Positions 22,728-64,000 of a stretch of DNA of 64,000 nt are shown one piece after another; position 1 is the stretch's first letter, and every line of letters begins with the position of its first letter. The notes under the pieces are model-generated. The model saw only the letters and a program-made list of their open reading frames with translations, searched no databases and was not told the origin of the DNA. The DNA is from Siphonodentalium dalli (taxonomy: Eukaryota; Mollusca; Scaphopoda; Gadilida; Siphonodentaliidae): the NCBI GenBank assembly GCA_032622095.1, contig CP136069.1:104374278-104438277 (forward strand). The letters are read 5' to 3'. The position numbers were made by a program, and so were the translations under genes.

Positions 22728-23366
22728 TTATGGCTGAATAATCGAGGTTGTATTTGGCGGAAGGAATGCGATCTTTATATTGGTCAGCTCCTTCGTAGAG
22801 TCGGGTGGGTGTGCTGAGCAGTTGTCGACGAGGAGTAGGATTTGTCGTTTCTGACGTCGCATGTCTCTGTCGAAGTCTTTTAGCCAGTCTATGAACAAGA
22901 TGGCGGTCATCCAGCTATTCTTATTATTTTTGTATGGCATCGGCAGGTTCTTCTTGCCACGGAAGCATCTCGGCTGTTTGGACTTCCCGATCACCAATGG
23001 TCGTCGCTTGTCCGAACCCGTCATGTTACAAGCCAGTCTATGAACAAGATGGCGGTCATCCAGCTATTCTTATTATTTTTGTATGGCATCGGCAGGTTCT
23101 TCTTGCCACGGAAGCATCTCGGCTGTTTGGACTTCCCGATCACCAATGGTCGTCGCTTGTCCGAACCCGTCATGTTACAAGCTACAAGAACTGTATATCT
23201 GTCTTTTGACTTCTTTCCGCCACTACACGACTCCGACTTCCTGGCTAATGTCCCATTTGGTAGCGCTCGATAGTAAAGGCCCGTCTCGTCCGCCTTGTAA
23301 ATATCAGCTGCGTCATATGTGTTCAGGTATTCTGGCAGTTTGTCGTTGAGCCACTGCTCGCTGTAT
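22728..23366 (-). pseudogene. Tigger/pogo DDE transposase fragment
   Basis: On the minus strand 23366 down reads EQWLNDKLPEYLNTYDAADI, KADETGLYYRALP (first catalytic Asp with the DETG hallmark), GGKKSKDRYTVLVACN, MTGSDKRRPLVIGKSKQPRC, WMTAILFIDWL, and finally ILLLVDNCSAHP (second Asp) and LPPNTTSIIQP. This is the DDE_1/CENP-B-like transposase of the pogo-Tigger group, which cuts and pastes DNA at TA sites. The N-terminal helix-turn-helix DNA-binding part and everything after IIQP (third catalytic acid) are missing. A 149-bp tandem duplication (22882-23030 and 23031-23179) repeats the central part and shifts the frame. Not functional. Confidence 0.9.
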
Positions 23367-25503: not shown

Positions 25504-25676
25504 TAAAGGAGCCCTCATAAACTGAACTATATGGATTATATCTCTGGCTTTGTGTCAATCAGGAGGGTTAAAAGTTATTGTAGCTTACTCTGGGTACGTA
25601 CTCCCTGTGCTCAGATTAGTCACGCATGAATGCGATGAATGCACCCAGTATAAAGCTTGTGTTCTAACTGCTAACT
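25503..25676 (+). mobile_element. Partial copy of the 10.7/14.3-kb TIR family
   Basis: AAAGGAGCCCTCATAAACTG, AACTATATGGATTATATC and CAGATTAGTCACGCATGAA match, with divergence, the left end of the element at 10714 and the right end of the MITE at 14553. The copy is cut at 25676 by insertion of the foldback element; its other half may continue after 28297 (GGTCAGTTTTAATTTC...), where I see no clear further match. Confidence 0.6.
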
Positions 25677-28292
25677 CACGGGGCGTCATATGCCCCGCGA
25701 GAATCGGTTCGAAATCTGCAGACGACCCAGCGCGAAATCGCACGTGTCTCGGCGCCCTTCCGGTCACAAATGTCAGGGTCGGCTCCAAAATTGAATTAAA
25801 CAGCGACAAAGGTGAGTTAATGCAGAATATAACACACAATGCATACTCCACAATGATTACTGGTATCGAATCAGTAGCTTTTATGGAGTATTATGCGATA
25901 AGATTTGTTTATTTTACATGTTTACAAAAGTCATTATTTCCAAGTGCATTAATTTTCAATGGAATATTCCACCAATTTCCACGAGTGATTAACCGCTATT
26001 CTGGAAGCTACGTTTGAGTATACTGTTGCTCATTGTTAGATACATACATTTCCTAGCTCCCAAACCACACGTAAGTTTAGTATTATACTTGTATGCCACA
26101 AAAAATGAATCTTAAAATGACCCGAAAATGTCACGGTTCCCTTCCGGTCAACTGTTAGCATTTGGGTTCGCATCGGTTTGATCATGCCCCAGTTCCGAAT
26201 CTGCACGTATTTAGTTTTCGCATTATTTGACCAGCATTTTCGTGCTCGTTGGAGACTTATCACGCATATTTTATGTCCATATTTACTAGTAATGACTAGC
26301 ACCACATATAACACTATTTATACGGCGATATCTTGTTAAATGCACCTTGCTATGCTATAGGCGACTTCGAAGCACGAACTATTATTTTATTTAAAAGGAT
26401 GTCGTTTTTATGTGTAAACAATAAGTGGGAACACATATACACACCTGGCATTAATCCGATATGACTCGTGTTGCGTACACGTCGCTAAAATCATAATAAG
26501 CCTACTGCCTACATTATATAATGTATCGTCTCAAACTTACACAAGTTTGTTTCTGTTATCTGACCGAATAATGGTTGTTTATGCCTGTATTGTGGCTTCA
26601 TATACATGTCCAAGCATACACCATGCATATTGCATAGCATGATTTAAATTCATTTAACTTGACAAATCTGACACCCAAGTAGTGATGGACTTTTGCAAAT
26701 ATGCAATTAGAACAAAAGAGCACAACGCCACCGATTGATACCAATAGTCCAAACACATCGTTGCCCGCAAACATGTCTAGAATTGGTACACCTATGAGGG
26801 ATGTCCACTCAAGGAAATCGCTATTCAAAGAAGACTGCGATATGGACGAGTCGGAACTCGGAACGTGTCACCGAGGACGAGTCTTGTGACGTGATGTCTT
26901 CTTCCAACAATTCACCTGTCGTGGAAGAAACGACTCTCGTGGAAGAAATAAACAAGCTAATTCCATCGGCAATAGAATCTCTTATTTTGCATGACCAATT
27001 AGATGATTGGATGGCATTCCTCCGACTATTATCATCTGGAACGTTCCCCATGCAGAACATATCGTTCCAGCTATTTATGGATGTAGTGAAGTTTTTGGAA
27101 ACTGAACATGGGGATGAGATATAGTCCACAGACAAAACAATTCTGGGGAGTTGGTTATGAATGTTTCGGTTCAAAGTTCATTCGTTTTATGGGAGGTCCG
27201 AAATGTGCTGGCTTTTCTCGAAACCTCGAAACCGACACGGCTCGTGTTAACTTCGTTTGCCCCAGTGTAAATATACTATTTAAAGATCTCTAAAAGTCCA
27301 CCACTACTTGGGTGTCAGATTTGTCAAGTTAAATGAATTTAAATCCTGCTATGCAATATGCATGGTGTATGCTTGGACATGAAGCCACCAAACAGGCATA
27401 AACAACCATTATTCGGTCAGATAACAGAAACAAACTTGTGTAAGTTTGAGACGATACATTATATAATGTAGACAGTAGGCTTATTATGATTTTAGCGACG
27501 TGTACGCAACACGAGTCATATCGGATCAATGCCAGGTGTGTATATGTGTTCCCACTTATTGTTTACACATAAAAACGACATCCTTTTAAATAAAATAATA
27601 GTTCGTGCTTCGAAGTCGCCTAGCAAGGTGCATTTAACAAGATAACGCCGTATAAATTGTGTCATATGTGGTGCTAGTCATTACTAGCAAATATGGAAAT
27701 AAAATATGCGTGATAAGTCTCCAACGAGCACGAAAATACTGGTCAAATAATGCGAAAACTAAATACGTGCAGATTCGGAACTGGGGCATGATCAAACCGA
27801 TGCGAACCCAAATGCTAACAGTTGACCGCAAGGGAACCGTGACATTTTCGGGTCATTTTAAGATTAATTTTTTGTGGCATACAAGTATAATACTAAACTT
27901 ACTTGTGGTTTGGGAGCTAGGAAATGTATGTATGAAACATTGAGCAACAGTATACTCAAGCGTAGCTTCCAGAATTGCGGTTAATCACTCGTGGAAATTG
28001 GTGGAATATTCCATTGAAAATGCACTTGGAAATAATGACTTTTGTAAACATGTAAAATAAACAAATCTTATTGCATAATACTCCATAAAAGCTACTGATT
28101 CGATACTAGTAATCATTGTGGAGTATGCATTGTGTGTTATATTCTGTATTAACTCACCTTTGTCGCTGTTTAATTCAAGTTTGGAGCCGACCCTGACATT
28201 TGTGACCGGAAGGGCGCCGAGACACTTGCGATTTCGCGCTGGGTCGTCTGCAGATTTCGAACCGATTCTCGCGGGGCACATGACGCCCCGTG
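25677..28292. mobile_element. 2.6-kb foldback element with about 1-kb arms and 5-bp TSD
   Basis: The left arm (25677 to about 26695) and right arm (about 27293-28292) are near-identical reverse complements over roughly 1 kb. The ends are CACGGGGCGTCAT and ATGACGCCCCGTG. TAACT flanks both ends (25672-25676 and 28293-28297), a 5-bp target-site duplication. The centre of about 600 bp is unique and coding-like. CAC-type termini with 5-bp duplications are described for Transib/RAG-like transposons, and CAC ends also for CACTA/Chapaev. Very long arms are unusual for both, so I leave the superfamily open. No transposase is visible. It interrupts an older TIR element. Confidence 0.85.
26701..27292 (+). 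pseudogene. Cargo coding relic of the foldback element, unknown family
   Basis: Three consecutive frames form one protein of about 190 residues broken twice. The first (from ATG 26701) is acidic and Ser/Thr-rich, and is shifted by a 7-base tandem duplication (TCGGAAC twice, about 26850-26863). The second contains INKLIPSAIESLILHDQLDD, WMAFLRLLSSGTFPMQNISF and QLFMDVVKFLETEHG. An extra G near 27109-27113 shifts to the third, MRYSPQTKQFWGVGYECFGS then KFIRFMGGPKCAG, ending at TAA 27291-27293. The layout resembles uncharacterised proteins I have a vague sense of from other invertebrates; I cannot name a domain and do not assign a function. It may be captured host sequence or an element-borne accessory gene. 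Confidence 0.55.
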
Positions 28293-28297
28293 TAACT

Positions 28298-29522: not shown

Positions 29523-31013
29523 ATGGGTAGGACAAAAAATGCCAACAAAAGCAGGCAGCGCCCGGTGCCGGTGGTTTCCCGACCATCTAGGACATCGGCA
29601 GCGAGCGTTGCCGAGCAACATCGTGCAGCAGCATCCGGCGCCATTAATTCTCAGTCTTCCATAACTTGGGACGAGTCGAATGTAAAAAATTGGACTGTGA
29701 CCCGCCTAAGAAGTGCTCTACGGGGATTTAATATTACCGTCCCGGATTCTATCAAAAAACCGGAATTAATAAAACTTTATCAGATGAACTCTAATCGGAT
29801 GCCCGATCAGCAGCAAATCAGGACATCGCTCCTGCAAGACAATGCTTCAGTGCCACCAATTTTACCATCTCCTGTTTCCGCTTCAGTGCCTTCAGACATT
29901 ATGATGTAGCATTCATGCATGACAGCTGCCAGTGCTTCAGTGCCACCAAACAATCCCTCTCAGCATCTGTTTCATGCTCCACCGAATTATGGCAATATGA
30001 TGCCTATAAACGATGCGTCTTGCAGTAATAATGCAGACAATTATTCTTCGGGCCTTGGTTTAGGACAGACCATCTCCAGTCAAGAACATCAAATTGCCGA
30101 ATTGCTGGCAGCCAATAAGCAGCTAGTGGACAAACTCTCGGAGGTTCGTTCTCCAAACAATACCATGGTGCATTCAACAAACTCTCAGCAGCAGAACTCT
30201 AGTGAACATTTCGCTGAACCTAACTTGCTGCTCCGTTCAGGAGGTGTCCCTCTAGCTTCGCTACCTGAGATCGAGGCAGACATCCCACAGGGATTAAGAT
30301 CAGATATATTAGCAGGTAGAGACATTAATCTTGTGCGACTTATTATGCCTCAAATGGAAGCCAGCAAAGTAGATAAATTTGATGCTCGCTTGTCCAAAGC
30401 CTTATCTCTTCACGAGTTCATCAGAGCATTTGGTCGCTATAAGAACGTTATTTGTGAGATATTTCCTAACAGGCGAGAGGAAATGGATGCATATCTTTCT
30501 GATATCATTCAGATTGCCTCTCAATATGGCGAATCTTTTTACGCCTATCATTTGGCATTTTCAGCCAAAGCAGCTGCTTGGTTGACCCGGGGCAACAAAG
30601 TGGATTGGTCTCTTGGAGACAACCACCTTTACTGTACCATTTTTACCAGCCAAAAATCAATGGCATGTTACTTATGTCAGGGTACATCGCACTCAGCGAA
30701 ATTTTGTATTTTGGCTTCGACCACACGCAATTTTGGCCAATCTGCCCCACCCAAATTTTCGGCAGCACCCCCAACCAGTTCGCTCCCGGCTTTTACCAAC
30801 CCTGTTGTGTCAGGGACGCCATGTTTGCAATTCAATTCGGTCAGAGGCTGTACTTTCGGACCTTCATGCAAGTATGCGCATCAATGTCTGTCGTGTCAAG
30901 GCCCTCATTCACGACAGGTATGCAGTAAAAAGCAGCCTCGGCAAAAACCTTTTCAGTTTGCCCCCCCCTGGCAAATCGGCCTGACTAACCGATGTAAATC
31001 TACCTCCAGATAA
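29523..31013 (+). pseudogene. DIRS-like gag: SAP-like motif, CCHC and CCCH zinc fingers, one in-frame TAG
   Basis: One frame of about 496 codons is interrupted only by TAG at 29907-29909. The N-terminus is basic (MGRTKNANKSRQ) and residues about 57-87 (WTVTRLRSALRGFNITVP, KKPELIKLY) look like a SAP-type helix-extended-helix DNA-binding motif. A Gln/Ser/Pro-rich linker repeating ASVPP surrounds the stop. The middle (FDARLSKALSLHEFIRAFGR onward) is the likely capsid core. Near residue 381 is CYLCQGTSHSAKFC, a C-x2-C-x4-H-x4-C knuckle; near 434 a CCCH finger ends CTFGPSCKYAH; then CLSCQGPHSRQVC. It would coat genomic RNA. The stop may be a mutation or a programmed read-through. Confidence 0.7.
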
Positions 31014-31662
31014 GTTTAGGACTGCTATTCCGAAGTCAATTTTTACGCCAGTTAACGTCCCTTTTTTACGCTGGGCGCTTCAGAATTATCCAGATAAAGA
31101 ATTTGTGGATTTTTTATTACAAGGTTTTACTTCCGGCTTTGACACAGGAATATCCCAATTGCCAACCCAATCCTTATCATTAAGAAATCTGCAATCAGCA
31201 GTTCAAGATCCCGCAGCAGTGGACGAGTTGCTAGCGAAAGAACTGGACAAAGGTTTTATTTTTGGTCCGTTTTCAGAGCCGCCATTCGCCACTTACCGCA
31301 TTAATCCTATCGGAATCGCAGTCAGGAAGCTATCCAATAAAAAGCGCCTCGTAGTAGACCTGTCAGCCCCTCATAAATCGTCTAAGGCTAATTCTCTTAA
31401 TTCATTGATTAGCCAAGAAGACTTCTCCCTAACATATGTTTCAGTGGACCATGCTGCAAAGATCATTAAGCAACTACCTCCAGGCAGTCACCTTTTTCAT
31501 TGCGACATTTCCAGCGCTTTCAAATTATGTCCAACGAAGAAGTCATTGTGGCCATTCTACGGCATCAGCTGGAGGAACAAATTTTACTTTTATTCCAAAT
31601 TGTGTTTTGGCAGTCGTTCATCCCGGGGGGCTCTCCGCTGGTACCCAGCTTCGTTTGGGTAG
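30984..31662 (+). pseudogene. Partial reverse transcriptase, DIRS-like
   Basis: The frame opens inside the last 30 bases of gag, one base out of phase, and runs DKFRTAIPKSIFTPVNVPFL, LLQGFTSGFDTGI, LAKELDKGFIFGPFSEPPFA, INPIGIAVRKLSNKKRLVVD (RT finger block with the conserved Lys/Arg) and LFHCDISSAFKL (motif A, catalytic Asp in CDISSAF). It ends at FGSRSS and a stop, before the YxDD box. No ATG is needed if translation is by frameshift from gag. The truncation is either a deletion or decay; downstream DNA shows no RT similarity. Confidence 0.75.
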
Positions 31663-35199: not shown

Positions 35200-36310
35200 G
35201 CAGAGCCAGAATGAGGTTCCCAGAGGGTGAATTTAGTGACGCTATCCTACACAGCAGGCTAGCATAACCAAATACACCCTCTGAGAACCTTATTCCGCTT
35301 AGGCCTCATCTTCTGGGAAGTATCTAGAGTCTCAAGATCTCATTCTGCTTAGGCCTCATCTTCTGGGAAGTATCTATAGTATCAAATTTACATTGTTGTT
35401 AGTTAAATTTCCCTTCTAGGAAGTTTCTGTATCCCTTAATTTGCAGAAGATAAAATTCATGATTGAGGTGCCCAATGGGTGAACATCACCAATTTCAACT
35501 GGGGAACTTCAATCTTATTCTAGGTCTTCCATAGCAGTTGAGGGCCTTATCAGAATGAGGTCCCCAGAGGGTGAATTTAGTGATACTAGCCCGCTGTGCA
35601 GGATAGCCTCACTAAATTCACCCTCTGGGTACCTCATTCTGCAAATAACAGACAGACTATTTCAAAGCTTGATTCAAGGCTAGCATCACCAAATTCACCA
35701 TTTGGGGACCTCATTCTGCTTAGGCCTCATCTTCTGGGAAGTATCTATAGTATCAAATTTACATTGTTGTTAGTTAAATTTCCCTTCTAGGAAGTTTCTA
35801 TATCCCCTAATTTGCAGAAGATAAAATTCATAATTGAGGGGCCCAATGGGTGAACATCACCAACTTCAACTGGGGAAATTCAATTTTATTCTAGGTCTTC
35901 CATAGCAGTTGAGGACTTTATCAGAATGAGGTCCCCAGAGGGTGAATTTAGCATCACTAAATTCACCCTCTGGGGACCTCACTCTGCAAATGACAGACAC
36001 ACTATCACACTATTTCAAGGCTTATTGTATAATACATTGTGTTGCTTGAGGCCAGGCATACACAATGTAGGAACAGACACGCTTTTTGTGATGCTATCCG
36101 GCACAGCAGGCTAGCATCACCAAATTCACCCTCTGACGACCTCATTCTGCTTAGGCCTCATCTTCTGGGAAGTATCTATAGTATCAAATTTACATTGTTG
36201 TTAGTTAAATTTCCCTTCTAGGAAGTTTCTATATCCCCTAATTTGCAGAAGATAAAATTCATAAATGAGGTGCCCAATGGGTGAATATCACCAACTTCAA
36301 CTGGGGAACT
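35200..36310. repeat. Three tandem units of about 370-420 bp, each with a palindromic mini-element
   Basis: The sequence TTAGGCCTCATCTTCTGGGAAGTATCTAT...GTTAGTTAAATTTCCC...GAAGATAAAATTCAT...CAACTGGGGAA recurs from about 35348, 35727 and 36149 with few differences. Between units stand copies of a 92-bp palindrome (35207-35298, 35551-35641, 35932-35987 shortened) and two half copies (about 35678-35718 and 36103-36150). Confidence 0.8.
35551..35641. mobile_element. 92-bp palindromic mini-element (copy in cluster 1)
   Basis: CAGAATGAGGTCCCCAGAGG-GTGAATTTAGTGA... is followed by its near-perfect reverse complement ending CCTCATTCTG. Related copies lie at 35207-35298 and 35932-35987 and, better preserved, at 41932-42024 and 42035-42127. 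Transcribed with GAK, each would fold into a stem of about 40 bp. Confidence 0.8.
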
Positions 36311-36335
36311 TAATTTTTATCCTTATCAGATTTGT

Positions 36336-37306
36336 GAAAATGGGATCACAAAGTCAAATAAGGGCAGAGCAAGAGACTTAACTATTTCACTACATAGTAA
36401 TTCTTAAAATATGTTTGCAAGAACTAGTTGGCTTATATAGAATGGAATGTTCTTCCTTGACTGCAATTCAGATTTTTTTAATGGGGTCACCTGGTCAAAT
36501 AGGGGCCAAGCGAAGGACAGTTTCCCTCTTAATATGCTTCCTTCACAAGGACCATCAGGTCTATTTGACTGATATTTATGATATGTATGAAGGGTTCTTT
36601 GGTGTCTGGGATTCAAATTTATTCAGATGGGGTCACCAGGTTAAAAGGGTGGGACCAGGGACATAACTATATGTCTCTATAGTAATTCTTAAAATGTCTT
36701 CTCAAGGGATTTTGGACAATTTAGCTTACATATAGTATGGAGGAATCAGGAAGATCCTTTAGTGACTGAGATACAGATTTGTTAAAATGAGGTCAACCTG
36801 TCAAGAAATGGCAGTCTATGGGGAGTTAACACTTTTGTGTCCAATAAAATCATAGAAATACCAAATTCATTAAAACATCTACCTTGGAACCACCTGACTG
36901 ATTGGTCTGACATACATGTATTGTGTTTTGGGTCCATGGATAATTGGGCTTCAAACATGTTTAAATGGTTTTAGAAAAAGGCGCTTGTGAGATTGGAAAT
37001 TTCCAACAATTGAGAAAGTTTGAGGTGTCGGTTGTGAAATTCCAACCTAAGACTTGGGAGTCTGGATCCCGGTCGGGAGGGGACTTGTTGAGCTGGAGGA
37101 GGGGGGTGATCAGTAGTGTACAGTTGGCAATTTCAAGGTGGTTTTTTACCAAGCTACATACTTGAAGTCTCTCTAGCCACATATCCTGTTTAAATCTACT
37201 TCTTTTAAAGTGATTATGAAAAGTGCTCACTGTTTTGGTCTCCAGAGTCCCAGTCTTATCAGTCATTGCAGTCTGGTGAGCGACCCCACAGTCATTGACT
37301 GTCTTG
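36336..37306 (+). repeat. Segmental duplication, copy 1
   Basis: This 0.95-kb block, from AAAATGGGATCACAAAGTC to CAGTCATTGACTGTCTTGTT, is repeated at about 38187-39045 with high similarity and small indels. It includes module-type sequence (GGGACCATAACTATATGTCTC) and a unique part (GTGAGATTGGAAATTTCC, GTCTGGATCCCGGTCGGG). A more diverged relative of its end is at about 43770-44095. Confidence 0.85.
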
Positions 37307-41899: not shown

Positions 41900-42166
41900 A
41901 ATCATGACCAAGCCTTGTGTGCCTGTCATTTGCAGAATGAGGTCCCCAGAGGGTGAATTTAGTGATGCTACCCCGCATAGCGGGCTAGCATCACCAAATT
42001 CACCCTCTGGGGACCTCATTCTGCTTACACCTCAGCAGAATGAGGTTCCCAGAGGGTGAATTTTGTGATGCTAGCCCGCTATGCGGGGTAGCATCACTAA
42101 ATTCAACTTCTGGGAACCTCATTCTGCAAATGACAGACACACTATTTCAAGGCTTGATCATGACAT
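41900..42166. mobile_element. Pair of 93-bp palindromes inside a larger inverted repeat
   Basis: 41932-42024 and 42035-42127 each start GCAGAATGAGGT-CCCAGAGG and end with the complement CCTC(A)TTCTGC. Their centres read CCCCGCATAGCGGG and CCCGCTATGCGGGG. The outer flanks ATCATGACCAAGCCTTG (41901-) and CAAGGCTTGATCATGA (42151-) are also inverse. The whole can fold as two hairpins or one long stem. It lies 390 bases after the GAK donor, within the next intron. This is the best-preserved copy of the family at 35.2-36.1 kb. Confidence 0.8.
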
Positions 42167-50245: not shown

Positions 50246-51191
50246 CTAAGCTAGTGAGGCAGGTCGTATGTACTGCCGAAAAGCATTGGATTTCCATCGC
50301 CCTAGTGCGCGAATTTGGGTGTCTGAAGGGCCATTTGCTGCCGCATCAGTAGCTGCACCTATCCTAAAACTATGGCCTTTGTACATATCTAGGTCGAGGT
50401 TACACAGGCATAAGGTTTGTTTGAGACCTGATCGAATTTGTGTGTGGTGGTTGGACTGCCTCGGCCTGAGAGAAAGAGAGGGCCCGGATATTCGCCGCGG
50501 ATCATGCAATACTGAGACAGCTGTAGGACCGGACAAAAGACCTTATTAGTTTGTCGGGAAACTGAAATATAGTGAGGACGCAGATTTAAATTAAGTCTGT
50601 GTAAATGTGAGATCATCGCGCTGAAGCACTGTGAGCTCTGAGTGTGGTGTCGTATGCAAAGTTCGCCTATTCATGCAAATGCATAACATGTCAAAAGGAA
50701 CAAGCCCCTAAAAAGTTTTAAGCTGTATGAAGTGGTGACACAGCGAGTTATCATCTCTACTAACTGATGGAGAATTGGTCTATTAATTGGAAAACGCACG
50801 TCTGCTGAAGGTGACAATTGAGAAAAACCTGCCATGGCTCTTCTAACCATGAAGTTTTGTGTAGGGTCGGGTAAATCCCTAATTTTGTGATAAAAACCCA
50901 ATGCTGATAAGAATGTATTGACAGATTTCGAGCTCATATCTTTATGGTATAAATAGGCGAGGAATTGCACAGTCGGTGAACTGGTATCAGTAGTGTTAGC
51001 ACCGATCCCGAAGCCGAACAGAAATCTTGGAATAACAGCATGGCCCTGCGGTAGACTGCTTTAGACCCCGGTGGTAGAGAGTGAGATAACAGGTGATTCA
51101 CTGTTCCAGCAAATTCTGAAGGTGTAGGTGACGGGGAAGAGTGTCGGGCTGTGGATTGGCCCATGGTGCCAGTTTGCGAAAGGTGTCGCAC
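50246..51191 (-). pseudogene. Tyrosine recombinase of the DIRS element
   Basis: Three frames. 51191-50934 has the N-terminal core-binding start, FAGTVNHLLSHSLPPGSKAV then YRRAMLLFQDFC. 50970-50671 has FLAYLYHKDMSSKSVNTFLS and ALGFYHKIRDLPDPT, the SAM-like DNA-binding part. 50536-50246 has the catalytic end, YKGHSFRIGAATDAA with the His-x-x-Arg pair, IRALGRW, and FRQYIRP with the nucleophile Tyr. The first catalytic Arg should lie near 50640-50700, where the frame is broken. It would splice circular cDNA into the genome. Inactive as it stands because of two frameshifts, although the C-terminal catalytic motifs are still clean. Confidence 0.85.
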
Positions 51192-51867
51192 TGTAAGCGA
51201 GATATAAATGAATCACTCAACACGTTAGATTTTCCAGCTATGTGTCGCGAACGGAACAGAATGTTATGCTGCAAACAGAGCGATACCAAAATTCTTAGCA
51301 ATTTTAGGATTGTTTTGTCATTACCAGTTTGGTTATTGATAATGGTTACAACCGTTTCGTTGTCAGACAACATTATAATGCTTTTATTGGCGATGTCATG
51401 ACCCCACAAACCGATTGCGGCCACAATAGGATACAGCTTAAGTACTGCAATATTTTGAATTTCCGGTAAATCGAAAGGGCCATAGAACCACTTTGTTCCA
51501 AAAATAGCAGCATATCCCTTGGTCGTAGCTGTAATGTTTCGTTTGAGACCCATTGTTCATCCAAAAAGAATGTGCGGCCATTATAATTCTGTAGAAACGA
51601 AAGCCAAAGTTCTAGGTCTACCTTTACCTCCAGTGTGAGCCGAATGTGATGATTAGGGTGAGAAATATTCAGGGTCAAATTAATCAGGCGTCGGAGGAAG
51701 ACCCGCCCCGGGAGAACCACCGAACAGGCGAAATTTAGCAGGCCAATAACACTCTGGAGATCCCTCAAGGTCGTTTTCTTTTTGCGTAAAAGTTTTGAAA
51801 TGCGGAATTTACAATCACTTAAATTGTCCAATGGAAGGCGTGCTTCACTGATAAGGGACCTTGTCAA
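51098..51867 (-). pseudogene. RT thumb/connection and RNase H of the DIRS element
   Basis: 51867-51373 reads ISEARLPLDNLSDCKFRISK, TTLRDLQSVIGLLNFACSVV and PGRVFLRRLINLT, the conserved post-palm block of DIRS RT. After a frameshift 51553-51098 gives RNase H: YAAIFGTKWFYGPF, IMLSDNETVVTIINNQT (catalytic Asp, N-E-T-V-V) and RSRHIAGKSNVLSDSFISRL (with the final Asp). This continues directly into the recombinase region. Its first codons are in frame with the RT half left on the far side of the inserted TIR element. Confidence 0.85.
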
Positions 51868-54800
51868 ATTACAAGCAGAAATTCCGCCGGAGAACGTAGT
51901 TTTATCTCCTCTCTCTGCTCAAAAACTCCAATCTCCTGTAAGGTAAATAGCGTAAAACACGCCAGAGTTTTTGATAATTTCATCGGAGTTATAGCGAAGT
52001 GTCTGGCGGAGTTTTTGTTACGACGTAACAGAGTTTTTGTTATGACGTAACGGAGTTTGCGTGACGTTATAGCGGAGTTTTTGTTACATTCATCGGAATT
52101 TGCGAAGTTTTACTAGGAAACATACCGCATGTTTTATTATCAGCCATATATGAATGGCAAAGAAGAATTAATTCAGTCAGTAACTTGCACTGTAGCTTAT
52201 CTACGATTTACGCCTCTGTTAACATGTTGTTTGCGTTGTTTTATAATATTAGGTATTGTTTTATTAATTGGCAGTAATAATTAGTGATGGATGCATGCTC
52301 TGTTTCGATTCCGATTCCGTACTTTATTATATATACACACGTAAATCGTGTCATTTTACTTCACTTTTATCGCATTGAAGTACACTTTATTCGTACCAAA
52401 GTACATTTTATTCATCACTGATTGTCAAAGTATCTAATATTCTAGCAAGTTCGGTTCACAATCTGCATATTCATCTAGTTATCATTCAATTATCACTAAT
52501 TGTTTAGTATTTTGTCGGCAAGCCATCGTGCAATTTCTTCACTATTTATCTATTCGTTACGCGATTTAATAAGCTCCGCCCATGGCCTGTCACTCATATT
52601 AAACCGGCAGATTCAATCTTCTCGCTGGGTTGTGTTATTGGGTTAAATGATTTTTAAAATTTCGTTTCAACGCAATTGGATTATGCTTCTGTACATTTAA
52701 TTTAGCCTCCCATAATATTTGACTATTTTCTCCCCATTGGACTGTGATTGGAAATGTTTCTCGCTGTAAATAATGATGAATATTCAAATAACGACATTTT
52801 TTACGCTTGGAGTATACTGTACCAGGTCTATTTCGTGTCAAATTCCAATGACTGAAATAAACTGCGGCCGAATGAGGTTCAAGAGACCCAATTAATTTTA
52901 AACTTTTCAAGATACCATGCAGGCTGCTATAATTTAAAGCCTATATATAAATAGTTCCACAGTTACTGAACATAAAGTCCCAAAAATAAGTGTTTAATCG
53001 AGTTTATAAATCGGTATCCTGATATAATATATTCAAGTTATGCAGGCTTAACCAGGTTCCCGGACAAACTTATCTCAGATAAAAGCACTAAACACAAAAT
53101 ATCGGGAATATATCGCCTGTTTCCTATAAATAACTCAGCTACAACTCGGCAGCGATAAAATCGTTCTGGGCGCCAAATTAACAGAGTTTAAAACAGTTTT
53201 CACCATTAGCGACTCGTCGCCATCCATGTTTTCAATGTTTTCCTATACTTATTCAATCGGTACCGTAATTGGAAAGACTGGTGTTCTGCAACAAATAGTA
53301 TCTCGGAACAGATGCACCTTTTTCAGAACACCGGTTCCCTTAACACGATGCTTAGAAACAAAATTCATAAAGTCACTTATATCGTACAATTTTGAGATGG
53401 GACCTTCACGTACAGTGAAGTACATTATTTAGAACAGGTGATGATTAAGAAATATATTCCCTGTGTTATTCATTCGACTATAAGTTTCCCTGTCGAAACT
53501 TCAAAAAAAAATAATCTCTCTCTCTTGTACTGGTGGAATATGATCTCTAAAAAATACTACACTTGGAAAAATCGCACAAGAACTTTAATAGGGAGATATC
53601 ACGAAATCACAAATTTTGTCACACTGCTGACTTACCAAATATTGCATAAATGCCGACTAGCTGTCGGCATCATTGGGAGCATGTATAAAGATTTGCATTG
53701 TTTACGACAGTAACAGCACTGGGTTTACGGTATTCTCCGAATCCGACGATGTCGCAAATATTGCACGTGCAGAGATGACTGTGTAACATTTTAGGCTAGC
53801 TGTAAACCCCCTGTTTTGCGTTCACCATTAAAAGTGAGTTTGATATAATGACAAATTGAAACATGCCACACGGAAAGTATACTATAAACCGGGGTAGGGG
53901 AATAATTTATATGAGTCTTTATTCTTCTTTTGATACTGGTTTGCACATTAAACGGTGACCGATGAACCAAATGAGGACAAGTTACCTAATCGCAAAATTA
54001 CTCGTACAAAATCAAAATTTGCATTGTTTACGGCAGCACTGGATTACTGTATTATTTCACAATTAGACAACGCAGCAAATTAAGGAGGAGGTCAAGTGAC
54101 CAATTTTTAATGGACATTTCCGTGCAAATCTCCGCAGTAAAACTTACCAATTGCAGATATTTCTGGGTGTGACAGTTGTGCGGTATTGAAAACAATACAC
54201 ATTTATATGGCGGGTTGGATTAGAATTTGTTCCATTGAGAAAGTTGATGTTTTTGTTTTGTTTTTTTTGTTTTGTTTTTTTTCTTTCGTGTTGTAATTCC
54301 AAAAATAAATTTATAGAAAATATTGCATATTTACCAAACCCAGCCGCCAGTTAAATGTTATGTCTGTTTAATCATATGGCTGCTGTAAATAGTTCCCAGA
54401 CAATGTTTCATATATAACTTTTGTTGGTGTGGATTGCATGGAAATCCCCATTCAAAAGGATTGGTCATTTGACCTCCCCCTTAATAGCACCTGCTTCACG
54501 ATATATTCGGGGCTTTGTCACCCATTGTGACGGTTTTGCGGCAACATCAAAACGTAGAATTGAAATGTGACACGAAAATAGTCTGCGTGTGTTGCCTATA
54601 ATATAAACCGGGGTTTGAAATAATTTATTTGGGACTTTAATCTTCTATTTATAAAAGTTCTCCGATGGAAATTCCAATTTAATTTGCACAAGCTCCCCGG
54701 CCTAACAGAGGAATTTGGTACGCTCCGGTTTCAGCTCTAACATCATCGAAGTTTCCGCTCTCGGCACAGCGGAGTTACAGCTCTGGTTTCAGCGGAGTTT

Positions 54801-57561: not shown

Positions 57562-59001
57562 ATTCTTGGATAGTTTTTAATACATGTTGGTACCTAATGA
57601 CCCCATCTATTTTAAAGAAGCATGCTCAAGCTGTTGATAATCCTTTCTGGAGAGATGTAATTAACGCATGGATGGTATACTGTAATAAAATACATCCTAT
57701 AAGTCAGATAGACTTTGATACCCTACCATTGATTGGTTTTAATGCCACAGCCAAATTTGTAGAACCACGAATAAACATGTTTATGACCGAAAGGATAGTA
57801 ACTATTTCAGATTTTAAAATCCCATCTGGGAGTTTCATGTCATACAATGAGTTTACTTTAAAATATAAATCAAAATTGGATTTTGTAACATTTCATGGAA
57901 TAGTAAAATTAATAAAAAACTACGAAAAAATCATTAAAGAAATGTGATAACAAAATGACTGTGGATTATCCATTTATTCCATTCCAATTAAAAAACATTC
58001 TAAATACAACTAGCAAAAAAAATGTATATAAGATAATGATCCCATATGAAAATCAAAGCAAACAAATAGCTAAATGGGAGGATAAACTAAACAAAACATA
58101 TAGCATGGAATGGTGGAAAGAAGTTTTTAAATGTCCCTTTTACAATGTTACAGATACAAAACTTAAATGGTTTCAATATCGAATTAACGCACATATACTA
58201 CGTACAAATAAATTTTTGAAAATAATAGGTATCCAAGATGAAGATACATGTACATTCTGTAAAAACAAAATCGAAACAATACTTCATATCTTCTGGGAAT
58301 GTCATGTCATAAAAAAAAAATTGGCGGACTGTAGAGATGTGGGTATACAATATAACAAGCCAAAGAATTAAACTAAATAATATAATAGCTATTTTTAGCA
58401 ACACACCAGAGAAAAACCTTGAACCGTGGATACAATTTTTACTTCTATTTACCAGATACCATATATATAGGTCAAAATTAAATGAACACATACCAAATTA
58501 TCTATGCTTGCAAAGAGAGCTACATACTACCTTGCTGAACGTATATGTTATTATAACCAAGGCCGATATAAACAATTCACAGAAAGATGGTCATACTTAA
58601 AATATTTAGTTGAATAATCTATTATTCAGCCAACAGTTATAATAATAACAAGGTTTATAATGGAACTATTCCAACGAAATACATATCCAATCTGCCTGCA
58701 AACAAATTAGAACGTTGTTTTTCTTTATCTTATTAAGTCTTTGATAGAAAATTACATATATTAACATATATTACATACATTCAAAGAAACAACACATTTC
58801 TTGATAATTTCAAGTTCAAGCCAGCCCACTCCCCTCCCCTCCCCCCAAAGAAAAAATAAACCCCAGACAATATGAGACAATGATGCTTTAATTAATTTAG
58901 TCTAACAAGTTTATTGTGATGATGTATCCATAATGTGTACTGTATAAATGATTTTGTCTGAATAAAAATATATAAAAAAAACAAAACATTCTTGGATAGT
59001 T
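57562..59001 (+). mobile_element. 5'-truncated LINE insertion with 14-bp target-site duplication
   Basis: ATTCTTGGATAGTT occurs at 57562-57575 and again at 58988-59001. Between them lie 1,412 bases holding only the 3' end of a LINE ORF2, a 3' untranslated stretch, and the A-rich end AATAAAAATATATAAAAAAA then ACAAAAC. Target-primed reverse transcription produces exactly this: long duplication, 3' A-rich tail, missing 5' end. It is in the GAK intron in sense orientation. Confidence 0.9.
57597..58600 (+). pseudogene. LINE ORF2 C-terminus (L1/Tx1-like)
   Basis: Three frames in series, shifted at about 57945 and in the A-run at 58311-58320. The first has HAQAVDNPFWRDVINAWMVY and SGSFMSYNEF. The second has KWEDKLNKTYSMEWWKEVFK, LKWFQYRINAHILRTNKFL and the zinc-knuckle-like TCTFCKNKIETILHIFWECH. 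The third has WIQFLLLFTRYHIYRSKLNE. The C-x2-C...HIFW-C knuckle near the end of ORF2 is typical of L1/Tx1-group elements. Endonuclease and polymerase domains were lost by 5' truncation. Confidence 0.8.
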
Positions 59002-60463: not shown

Positions 60464-61219
60464 TTACTGCAGCATCTCGCGATTGACGTCTTGGGTTTGG
60501 TTCAGTTCTGGACTTGTAACTGTAGGTTCACTAACAAAGTCATGATGAACCTCGAGAGGATAGAGTTTGGCGATCGGCCTATTAGTCACACCCATTTTTG
60601 TACGCAACGTTGCCAATCTTACTTTGCCATCCGGTCCAACATGAACATCAGTGATTACGGCCAATTTCCGCTGTAATTGTGGGCAGTCGTCATGAATTTG
60701 CACAACATCTCCAACTTTGACATCATCCTCTCTTCCAGATTTTACCGTATTGTAATGTTCTCATAATGACAACAAATATTCAGTTTTCCACCTTGACCAC
60801 AGTTGGATCAATATGAGAGAAATATCGTTTGCCCTCTTAACATAAACTGAACACGTATTACTGGACGGGTCACTGTAGGTTGGATCAACTATTATGTCCT
60901 GGTCGACATCAACATGTGTTAATGTTAACAAATTCCTGCCGCATATCAGTTTTGAAGGCGTAACTGGTTGTGGATCAGCAATACTTGAAGAAACAAAGGT
61001 CAGTGGTCGATCGTTAATGGCTGCTTCCACTTCAGTTACGATAGTAACTAATTCGTGCATGTGAATTTTTCGGATTCCTAACACTTTTTTGAGAGATGTT
61101 TTGGTGAGCCCGATGAGTCGTTCCCAGAATCCTCCATACCATGGTGCTCTTTTGGGAATGAATGTCCACTGCACATTTCGTTTTGAAAGTTCATTTGAAA
61201 GCCGTGGGTCCGAAAACAA
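60464..61219 (-). pseudogene. Pao integrase C-terminal half and DUF5641-like domain
   Basis: 61219-60761 reads RNVQWTFIPKRAPWYGGFWE with the catalytic Glu (WER), LIGLTKTSLKKVLG, EVEAAINDRPLTFVSSSI and QPVTPSKLICGR. After a shift 60703-60464 gives MQIHDDCPQLQRKLAVITDV and GKVRLATLRTKMGV then NRPIAKLYPLEV, the small beta-barrel-like domain that follows Pao integrases. This would position viral-like DNA ends for insertion. Confidence 0.85.
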
Positions 61220-61232
61220 CTGTCACAGGTTA

Positions 61233-61765
61233 TTAGCCGCTTCCATTGTTCGATATGATCTTTGAGGGAAGTCCACATCTGCTCACAAATCGCCTGAAAC
61301 AGTGTATAAAGGAGTCCACAGTCAAATCTTGAACAACTTCAAGATGAACAGCACGGGTACTTGCACAAGTGAACAAATATATGTAAGCTTTATATGGAGC
61401 GTCTCTAATATTCAAATGGCCAGTGAAATCAACACCTGTCACATGAAATGGTTCACATTCGGTCACTCTATCCATCGGGAGATGAGGTGGAGCTGGAGGT
61501 CTAAATGCTTTACCAATGATCTTTTTGCACCTCACACACGACTTTACAGTTCGCTTTGTCACCTGTCTTTTGCGGGAATCCAAAATTTCTGTCGAATGGA
61601 TGACACGGTCTGGTTAATGCCAGAATGAAGGGTTAACATGTGATGGTGCATACTGACAAGCGCACTTAACGAACTGCTTGGATGTAGGATAATGGGATAT
61701 TTAGAATCCACAGTCCACAAAAGCGTTCCTGATTCGCCCGCGGCTATGGAGAATTCCTGCATCGT
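61233..61765 (-). pseudogene. Pao integrase zinc-binding and core N-terminal half
   Basis: 61762-61559 has HHHMLTLHSGINQTVSSIRQ and KFWI, the H-H half of the HHCC zinc module. 61583-61233 has CVRCKKIIGKAF (the C-C half), PFHVTGVDFTGHL (first catalytic Asp in GVDF) and RCGLPSKIISNNGSG. The last motif normally reads SDNG, so the second catalytic Asp is Asn. With the frame breaks either side, this integrase cannot be active. Confidence 0.85.
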
Positions 61766-62101: not shown

Positions 62102-63004
62102 TCAGGTTCGTGTCCACTCCATGTGGGAAAATTTATAGTGTCGGATTGTAACCATGCGGGGCCAGAGTTTGTTTGACATCAACTGACTGCTTGAAATTCC
62201 ACGACTCACAATGTCTGCAGGGTTATCTGTAGACTCACAATGATGCCAATCGCCAACGTTCGTTAACATTTTGATTTCAGCCACCCTGTTTGATATGAAC
62301 ATTGGAAGATTTCTGGTTGAATTTAACCAGTACAACACGATCATACTGTCAGTCCACATCACAGTTTTTATTGGACGACTTAGTTGTAGAAATTTTATGA
62401 CATTTGAAGCCATGCATGCGGCTATCAGAGCTGCCATCAGTTCCAATTGCGGAATTGTCAATGGTTTCAACGGAGCGACTCTACTTTTCACTAGAATGAA
62501 CTGGGGCAAACATGAGTTACTTGATTTAAGGTAGCCCACCGTCCCATAAGCCTTGGCGCTCGCGTCAGCGAAGATATGCAGCTCTAGACTCTCATTGTCA
62601 ATTTCAGAATCACTTATGCGGCCGTTGAACGTAAAATCTGACGCTCTTTGTAGATCATTTCGAACAGAAACCCACTCTTGCACGAACTCGCTAGGTACCA
62701 ATTCATCCCGTTCTAAGTTTTGAAACCAAAGTTTTTGCATTAGGATTTTAGCACGGATTGTGATCGGTGAAACAAAACCTAATGGGTCGAACACGCTACA
62801 GCTGTCACTCAATATCTGTCGTTTGGTTACAAGTTCACTATTGTTCATTTGTTCGCATGGGAGAGACAATGTGTCGGAGTCTGTACTCCAATGCAGGCCA
62901 AGAACAGAAACAGTTTTTGACGAATCAGAAACGTTTTTGCTATCATGAACGAACATTAAATTGCCAGCTGCCATGATTTGTCGAGTTTGGTAGAAGTAGT
63001 TCAT
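62102..63004 (-). pseudogene. Pao RT connection and RNase H
   Basis: A clean 300-codon frame. VLGLHWSTDSDTLSL, TKRQILSDSCSVFDPLGFVS and PITIRAKILMQKLW form the Pao-specific post-RT block; then come RNase H motifs LHIFADASAKAYGTVGYL (Asp 1), TIPQLELMAALIAACMA (Glu), VMWTDSMIVLYWL (Asp 2) and ADIVSRGIS (Asp 3). All four acidic residues are present. Its apparent ATG at 63004 is internal; the frame should be continuous with the RT upstream but is shifted. Confidence 0.9.
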
Positions 63005-63726
63005 TTTCGGATTTGAAACTGGAGATGAAATTATAAAACATTGTTCAGTAAATTTTGAGAAACATCCGGCGATTCGGGTATGTTCATCATGAGATGTTTT
63101 AGGATTGTGGCATTTAATATAAATGGTGATGATTTCGCTCCGAACAACACAACATTGAACCTATAAACAACATCAAACGGTGATTCAGGGTCATTTGGAT
63201 CTGATAGCCACAAGAATCTTGTGAAGTTTTTATCATTGTCGGCTAAATTTACGTGCAAGAAGGCCTTTTCGACATCTGATACTACACCATATTTCTGTAA
63301 TCTGAATCGCACTAGAATTGCACACAAGTCATTTTGTAGAGCTGGACCCGATAACAAACAATCGTTTAGACTGGGAATAGATTTATTGTTCTTTATACAG
63401 CTGCAATCATATACTATCCTCATCGGCATTGTTGATGAAGTTTTGAAAACCGGGTGGTGTAGTATATAATGACAACTTCCCAATACGATTGCAGAAATCT
63501 CATCGCGGGGAACTTTTTCAGTGAAACCCTTCATAGTTTGTTCCTTAATAATTCTATCATAGTCATCATGTTGAGGTGGATATTTAGCGAGGCGACGAAC
63601 AGTGGATCTAGTTCTATTAGTAACAATGTTAAAGTTCGTAGATAATGGGGTGTGGTTTTCTGCCCATGGTAATTTGGCCATATATGATCCGTTCTCAAAC
63701 TGTATGAATTCACAATAAGTAGACAA
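63005..63726 (-). pseudogene. Pao reverse transcriptase, catalytic box deleted
   Basis: 63726-63031 reads WAENHTPLSTNFNIVTNRTR, LGSCHYILHHPVFKTSSTMP, MRIVYDCSC (finger), SLNDCLLSGPALQNDLCAIL, YGVVSDVEKAFLHVNLADND (motif A, Asp present), TRFLWLSDPNDPESP and YRFNVVLFGAKSSPFILNAT (motif B). It ends NLLNNVL then stop. The YVD(D/N) box should follow directly; instead about six bases are missing and the frame moves (LNNVL / YNFISSF), so the two palm aspartates are gone. Confidence 0.9.
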
Positions 63727-64000
63727 TACGTGTAGTTCATGATTACCTGTGGATGTCGGTGCGTCGATTCCAATTGACTCGAGATTCCAGAAGTTCTCAC
63801 GTTAAAATCGCTGTCGGAATGATCCATGAAGATGCTCATCATAGTTGCAGCATGACGTTTTTCTGTTGATTTACCAGCTGGTCCAGACAACAAGAATCCT
63901 AACTTTGACTTCACAGCCACTGGCACCTTTCACATGTTTTTCATCCATCACACTATAATAAAAGTCTGCACCAATGAGAATGTCAATCAGAAACGTGTCA
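63727..64000 (-). pseudogene. Pao aspartic-protease region (partial, window edge)
   Basis: The first minus-strand bases translate DTFLIDILIGADFYYSVMDE, matching the 'DILIGADYY' end of the BEL/Pao retropepsin (DUF1758-type), then VKSKLGFLLSGPAG after a frameshift near 63930. The catalytic DTG would be outside the window. A stop lies near 63885 in the protease frame. Confidence 0.75.

Follow-up and report, generated by a model that had tools for sequence, protein, structure and literature searches.

The stretch of DNA analysed here (the window, 64,000 nucleotides of contig CP136069.1 of the scaphopod Siphonodentalium dalli) contains a foldback element, and this element belongs to a dispersed family of foldback-type, non-autonomous terminal inverted repeat (TIR) transposons which are flanked by target-site duplications (TSDs). 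Copies of the family occur dispersed in the genome, have conserved ends and a 5-bp TSD, and carry between these ends dissimilar centres and, in some cases, foreign cargo. We consider it probable, at roughly 78%, that the family is modular and cargo-carrying in the manner of the Pack-TIRs, and that it is mobilised in trans by a cut-and-paste transposase acting with a 5-bp stagger. The copy in the window is best explained as a member of one of three centre classes (class C), the centre of which would be a decayed gene fragment.

Dispersed copies with conserved ends and 5-bp duplications

Long, nearly identical inverted arms make up most of the window element, and further paired copies are built alike, as is typical of foldback elements. 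The two arms are 95.8% identical across 1018 aligned columns, gaps counted, and differ by ~2.4-2.6% substitutions and by four small insertions or deletions of 19 bp in total. The element ends are CACGGGGC/GCCCCGTG. The original prediction, made from the window alone, of a foldback element with ~1-kb arms, CAC ends and TAACT at both borders had these coordinates right (25677-28292). Within the 64-kb window, a 21-base end pattern with <=3 mismatches is present at only 2 places (mean 0.00 in 100 shuffles), and there are no other arm matches except for matches of 16-18 bases.

The source genome comprises 2.23 Gb in nine contigs. A search with the outer 229 bp of the element yielded 165 candidates, the best 40 of which, including the window, were scored; these 40 places are 97-100% identical and spread over all nine contigs. 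The remaining 39 scored places are covered by 36 other stretches (loci are designated L, positions within them following a colon), and two small stretches were added in order to complete ends. Both ends were read in 24 elements, namely the window element, 12 and 8 further elements, L058, a copy of 19.3 kb and L067. An exact 5-bp TSD flanks 23 of these, the TSD of L019 matches at 4/5 positions (CTAAG/CTACG), and a TSD of any other length was found in none of the 24. The first 15 duplications are 73% A+T and have no sequence in common. A local assembly inversion without any mobile element, which had been named as an alternative, is refuted by these dispersed copies with their independent flanks and TSDs.

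The arm ends read CACGGGGCGTCATRTGCCCC across 36 aligned arms, with few variants: positions 1-4 and 9-13 are invariant in 36/36 arms, and every position from 1 to 23 is kept in 34-36 of the 36. For the tips, CACGGGGCGTCATRTGCCCCGCG, a short hairpin is predicted with RNA parameters.

The age of the copies was approached via the divergence over the outer 260 bp of the arms. The 36 arms differ on average by 1.1% from the family majority, and each window arm by 1.15%, the two being 2.3% apart from one another. Of the 30 arms belonging to 15 elements, 11 have their partner as the nearest or an equally near arm; those of the window are not among them. In the 19.3-kb copy, as in L058, the two arms are identical over the outer 260 bp. 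The picture suggested by these distances is a star-like, fairly recent spread, in which the window copy appears average in age and not especially young. The description of the element as young holds in a relative sense, the age of the window copy itself being moderate.

Common arms, dissimilar centres and cargo

Three classes of centres without DNA similarity to one another were found, together with copies that have nearly no centre. Among 11 centres compared all against all, no match between classes was obtained at E 1e-4 once pieces derived from the arms are set aside, and each of the further loci matched a single class within its element. Class A is present in L009, L011, L019, L024, L059, L066, L067 and L072, and a part of ~258 bp of it in the 19.3-kb copy; class B in L010, L012, L013, L016, L058, L063, L064, L065, L068 and L071; and class C in the window, L017, L022 and L070, whereas L020, L023 and L026 have nearly no centre. 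In L022, part of the class-C centre is present twice, the second time inverted, an arrangement which shows a way in which arms may grow.

Foreign sequence between common TIRs, the hallmark of Pack-TIRs, was found in two copies, and the suggestion of a non-autonomous, cargo-carrying derivative, originally derived from the window element, is thereby borne out. The first of these, L012, contains ~520 bp which are absent from all other family loci compared, and a C2H2 zinc-finger frame between its arms (L012:5137-5553; zf-C2H2 E 9.7e-6, zf-C2H2_8 E 2.9e-7). The second is the 19.3-kb copy with its Polinton stretch, and for this cargo parental copies were seen elsewhere in the genome.

The 19.3-kb copy has its left end in L025 and its right end in L015, with ATATA on either side, and its arms of 617 bp are 98.4% identical. 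The frames of its interior include an A32-like ATPase, an rve integrase with a chromodomain match slightly under the cut-off, and an endoprotease-like frame, the L057 counterpart of which gives a weak adenovirus-endoprotease match, likewise slightly under the cut-off. A set of ATPase, integrase and endoprotease genes is characteristic of Polinton/Maverick transposons. The Polinton match, which starts where the class-A match ends and is thus joined to a class-A centre, runs from L025:1369 to ~L029:2077, and over these ~8.6 kb its identity with stretches in other Polinton copies is 95-99%. CAC arms were found in none of 20 Polinton copies, taken from 108 other scored ones, at the one distance inspected, 4.2 kb upstream of the integrase. 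The upstream stretches are 95-100% alike in 19 of the 20 (L049 resembles none), and all 20 are without a match to three stretches of the 19.3-kb copy. The other Polintons therefore continue beyond that point, and the Polinton in the 19.3-kb copy is an internal piece.

The 19.3-kb copy was first suspected to be an autonomous copy, a view which was rejected because its Polinton genes are an internal piece from elsewhere. A related explanation holds that the whole family is a Polinton/Maverick derivative, with the 19.3-kb copy as its master and the short copies as deletion products. Family ends, TSD and Polinton genes are indeed united in this copy, ~258 bp are common to it and to class-A centres (L024 95.7%, L019 84%), and 451 bp at 88% are common to its interior and L010. 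Nevertheless, this explanation is very improbable, since similarity to Polintons sets in only at L025:1369, where that to class A ceases, and since none of the 20 Polinton copies carries the family arms at the position inspected, 4.2 kb upstream of its integrase. The insertion of a whole Polinton into a class-A copy was also considered, but a second pair of long inverted repeats was not found among the stretches of this copy that were compared, where the further inverted matches measure only 45 and 132 bp at 72-84% (L029 versus L015), and the left junction shows a truncated Polinton. The Polinton of the 19.3-kb copy is accordingly either cargo or a whole insertion which lost its ends later.

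Two observations adjoin this copy. The Polinton/Maverick integrase (L025:4635-5765) gave 3680 first-look candidates genome-wide, 109 of which were scored and are 97-100% identical, and it is free of stops in 77 of these 109; the genome apparently harbours a very large and very young Polinton population. Inside the 19.3-kb copy, a 142-bp unit adjoining the right arm is repeated ~30 times in tandem (L015:2609-6927).

L058 was considered as a longer copy with a gene of its own and was rejected, since its extra 2.25 kb resembles a nested transposon, whose inverted ends are CTCTCCCCTGCC-like and which is accompanied by a TA duplication (junctions by eye). This apparent nested transposon (L058:1054-3308) has an open frame of 357 residues without a convincing Pfam match.

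The process by which such a modular family could arise may be pictured as follows. A transposase produced from another place in the genome would recognise in trans the conserved outer ends (CACGGGGCGTCATRTGCCCCGCGAG..., with their hairpin-prone tip), excise whatever sits between them and insert it with 5-bp staggered cuts, which would leave the 5-bp TSD. As only the ends matter for this process, the interior would be free to change; some copies would have lost nearly all of it, and in others unrelated DNA would have taken its place or been added to it. New centres could result from breaks or stalled replication within the long inverted arms, repaired from unrelated templates, and at least three centre forms would have been amplified afterwards. 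We infer cut-and-paste transposition by a DDE enzyme, its supply in trans, and replacement of the interior by gap filling or template switching. Published work on animal Pack-TIRs describes gap filling where copies are single, and transposition following replication fork switching where they are multicopy; among the latter is a fly foldback chimera whose transposase is unknown (PMC8277862). This work supports both proposed steps, capture and amplification (PMC8277862).

Several points weigh against this explanation. The stretches that were read stem from those 40 of the 165 candidates whose arms scored best, a selection biased towards conserved copies, and 12 of the 36 stretches (L009, L014, L018, L021, L027, L028, L060, L061, L062, L069, L070 and L073) have only one complete end. 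Between the arms read, neither an autonomous partner nor a transposase belonging to the family was found, by eye or with Pfam on the few frames scanned; the original prediction had likewise stated the lack of a transposase for the element. The class-C centre could itself be the remnant of a gene of the element. Furthermore, 451 bp of L010 (class B) recur at 88% far within the 19.3-kb copy, at L015:374-822, and pieces of the class-A centre are present at 74-85% in the flank of L013, outside any element. The latter fits the uptake of a dispersed repeat as a centre, and the former stretch is probably a separate repeat. On the class-B side, the stretch common to L010 and L015 lies at L010:4028-4477 and is partly self-inverted.

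With its common arms and dissimilar centres, the family amounts to a clear natural experiment on the capture of interiors in an animal genome. Its Polinton cargo illustrates that virus-like genes can come to sit between the ends of another transposon.

Affinities of the family

The 5-bp TSD, found in 23 of the 24 elements, does not agree with the 7-8 bp of the P superfamily (7 bp in Galileo). Together with the CAC..GTG ends it corresponds to what is found in Transib/RAG-like elements, and RAG-like transposons with CAC ends and 5-bp TSDs exist in protostomes (PMC7204232). Beyond these two features, the pointer to the Transib/RAG lineage in the original prediction is unsupported. Of the ends CACGGGGCGTCATRTGCCCC, only CAC agrees with how the protostome RAG-like TIR consensus, CACTWMCAAACKTYKBB, begins (PMC7204232), the arms of 1 kb are likewise unlike those elements, and between the arms read neither RAG1L/RAG2L nor a Transib or RAG1-like transposase, nor any other transposase of the EnSpm-Mirage-Chapaev-Transib group, was seen by eye or with Pfam on the few frames scanned. 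In addition, CA..TG ends with TSDs of 2-5 bp are common to most of the EnSpm/Mirage/Chapaev/Transib group, and thus occur in several lineages (PMC12730594). Membership of the family in the Transib/RAG-like lineage or in this wider group, with the long arms as a later expansion, is therefore rather unlikely in our estimation.

A 5-bp TSD, in agreement with that of the family, is also left by the described hAT5 families (PMC12730594), while the TSDs of the foldback elements Galileo, Tetris, Tm1 and FB4 all differ from it in length. No positive evidence singles out any one superfamily, and mobilisation by another superfamily with 5-bp TSDs, such as hAT5 or an undescribed one, has in our view a little less than an even chance.

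In their general architecture, several known systems resemble the family. Galileo, a Drosophila foldback of the P superfamily, has long TIRs (~300 bp-1.2 kb), non-autonomous two-arm copies and a variable structure, but its TSD is 7 bp in comparison to 5 bp, and its transposase is known (PMC3573991). FB4/Ssk-FB4, a Drosophila foldback Pack-TIR, shares with the family TIRs of considerable length (~700 bp), an unknown transposase and a captured gene amplified by transposition; it differs in its 9-10-bp TSD and in having one captured gene, as opposed to three centre classes and single cargoes (PMC8277862). Tetris of D. virilis and Tm1 of root-knot nematodes are foldback in structure and have non-autonomous copies, but their arms are internally repeated, an affinity to Mutator has been proposed for them, and their TSDs of 8-10 bp (Tetris) and 8-10, mostly 9 bp (Tm1) exceed the 5 bp of the family (PMC4079207, PMC3169594). 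KolobokP, in which bivalves are rich, also has long terminal repeats, but these are direct and the ends are RR..YY, whereas the repeats of the family are inverted and its ends CAC..GTG (PMC9587614); identity with KolobokP was ruled out on this structural basis.

The foldback families compared here thus have TSDs of 7-10 bp and, where assigned, belong to P or Mutator lineages (PMC3573991, PMC4079207, PMC3169594, PMC8277862). The CAC ends and the 5-bp TSD of the present foldback family speak for a different enzyme, and it would appear that very long arms arose once more in a separate lineage. A literature search on foldback, TSD, CAC and Polinton, restricted to open-licence papers judged by title and start of abstract, with repeat databases outside its scope, returned no paper evidently describing the family. 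It is conceivable, although we hold it only tentatively, that the family represents a foldback lineage, so far undescribed, which is characterised by hairpin-prone CAC ends together with its 5-bp TSD and is served by an undescribed transposase superfamily or deep lineage. It would act as a general carrier whose arms repeatedly exchanged whole interiors and took up host or transposon genes; one copy would have come to enclose 8.6 kb of a virus-like Polinton, drawn from the very large and young population of this genome. If this were true, transposases that recognise the arms would have in such a carrier family a direct means of moving virus-like genes.

The window copy and its surroundings

The features of the window copy are collected in Table 1, including the three open pieces of the putative coding relic which occupies its centre.

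Table 1. Features of the foldback element, in positions of the window
Feature	Position	Strand	Remarks
Whole element	25677..28292	.	2616 bp; dispersed copies in genome
Left target-site duplication, TAACT	25672..25676	.	
Right target-site duplication, TAACT	28293..28297	.	
Left arm	25677..26694	+	1018 bp
Right arm	27292..28292	-	1001 bp, inverted copy of left arm
Left-arm tip, GGGGCGTCATATGCCCC	25680..25696	.	imperfectly palindromic
Right-arm tip	28273..28289	.	imperfectly palindromic
Class-C centre	26695..27291	+	597 bp; in L017, L022, L070 and L001 (the window's own place), in no other family locus compared
Putative coding relic, open piece 1	26701..26866	+	first ATG 7 bases inside the end of the left arm
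Putative coding relic, open piece 2	26867..27121	+	frame other than that of piece 1; terminates in TAG
Putative coding relic, open piece 3	27114..27290	+	third frame; extends to right arm

When the frame was left free and up to two switches (<=2) were allowed, the plus strand of the centre obtained a coding score above that of 595 of 600 comparison segments, these being overlapping segments of the same window scored with a codon table trained on the window's other open frames. The five top-scoring comparison segments all begin at 56.3-56.6 kb, and the minus strand of the centre likewise lies in the top 5%. A first, hand-set framing with piece 3 in the wrong frame had given a score below zero, and a test for stop-free tiling was weakly suggestive, 95 of 2000 shuffles being equally good. 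In L022, an unaltered open stretch of 110 residues spans the position of the second frameshift of the window copy. The earlier characterisation of the centre as coding-like is hence supported by the coding score, though not proved, and the presumed reading is frameshifted over three frames. Among the four class-C copies, the variable sites of piece 2 fall evenly on the codon positions (5, 5 and 5), so that these few sites (15) give no sign of constraint on the centre since the copies spread.

The class-C centre has no Pfam match. Viral contigs searched with the DNA end, the protein and a degenerate motif, as well as prokaryote contigs and phages, gave no match, and searches of PDB and PHROGs returned chance-level hits or nothing. 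The predicted fold of the centre is poor (mean pLDDT 54). Stretches similar to its FWxxG...KFxRFMGG may also occur in invertebrate proteins; a literature search on words for protein motifs returned nothing.

The decayed gene fragment could be of the family's own making, in which case the class-C centre would be the remnant of its transposase gene, and classes A and B later replacements. In favour of this, the open reading starts within the left arm, 7 bases from its inner end, and takes up the whole centre as far as the right arm, as though a promoter lay in the arm. Set against this are the restriction of the class-C centre to the window and three other loci among the family loci compared, its lack of a Pfam match, and the even spread of the 15 variable sites of piece 2 over the codon positions (5, 5, 5), and we regard such an origin as possible but doubtful.

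In the left arm, positions 69-90 recur at 453-474 as a direct repeat around CCCTTCCGGTCA (86% identity, 22 bp, E 0.029), which is possibly an extra binding site, or a chance similarity.

Scans of the window for Rfam families and transfer RNAs gave no matches. Several other repeats surround the element. Pieces of a BEL/Pao-type retrotransposon lie at 62102-63801 (-), with Peptidase_A17 at E 4.9e-43 and RVT_1 under its cut-off, and the frames at 60761-61613 appear integrase-like by eye, without a Pfam match. Open frames at 29910-31662 (+) and 50671-51918 (-) resemble proteins of DIRS-type retrotransposons by eye; the five frames scanned gave no Pfam match at E 0.001. A LINE-like fragment with a zf-RVT match is located at 57919-58371 (+). 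Inverted units around GATGCTAGCCCGC are repeated at 35207-36382 and 41917-42158, in both orientations and at several places, and a tandem pair of 149-bp units, 100% identical, is situated at 22882-23179.

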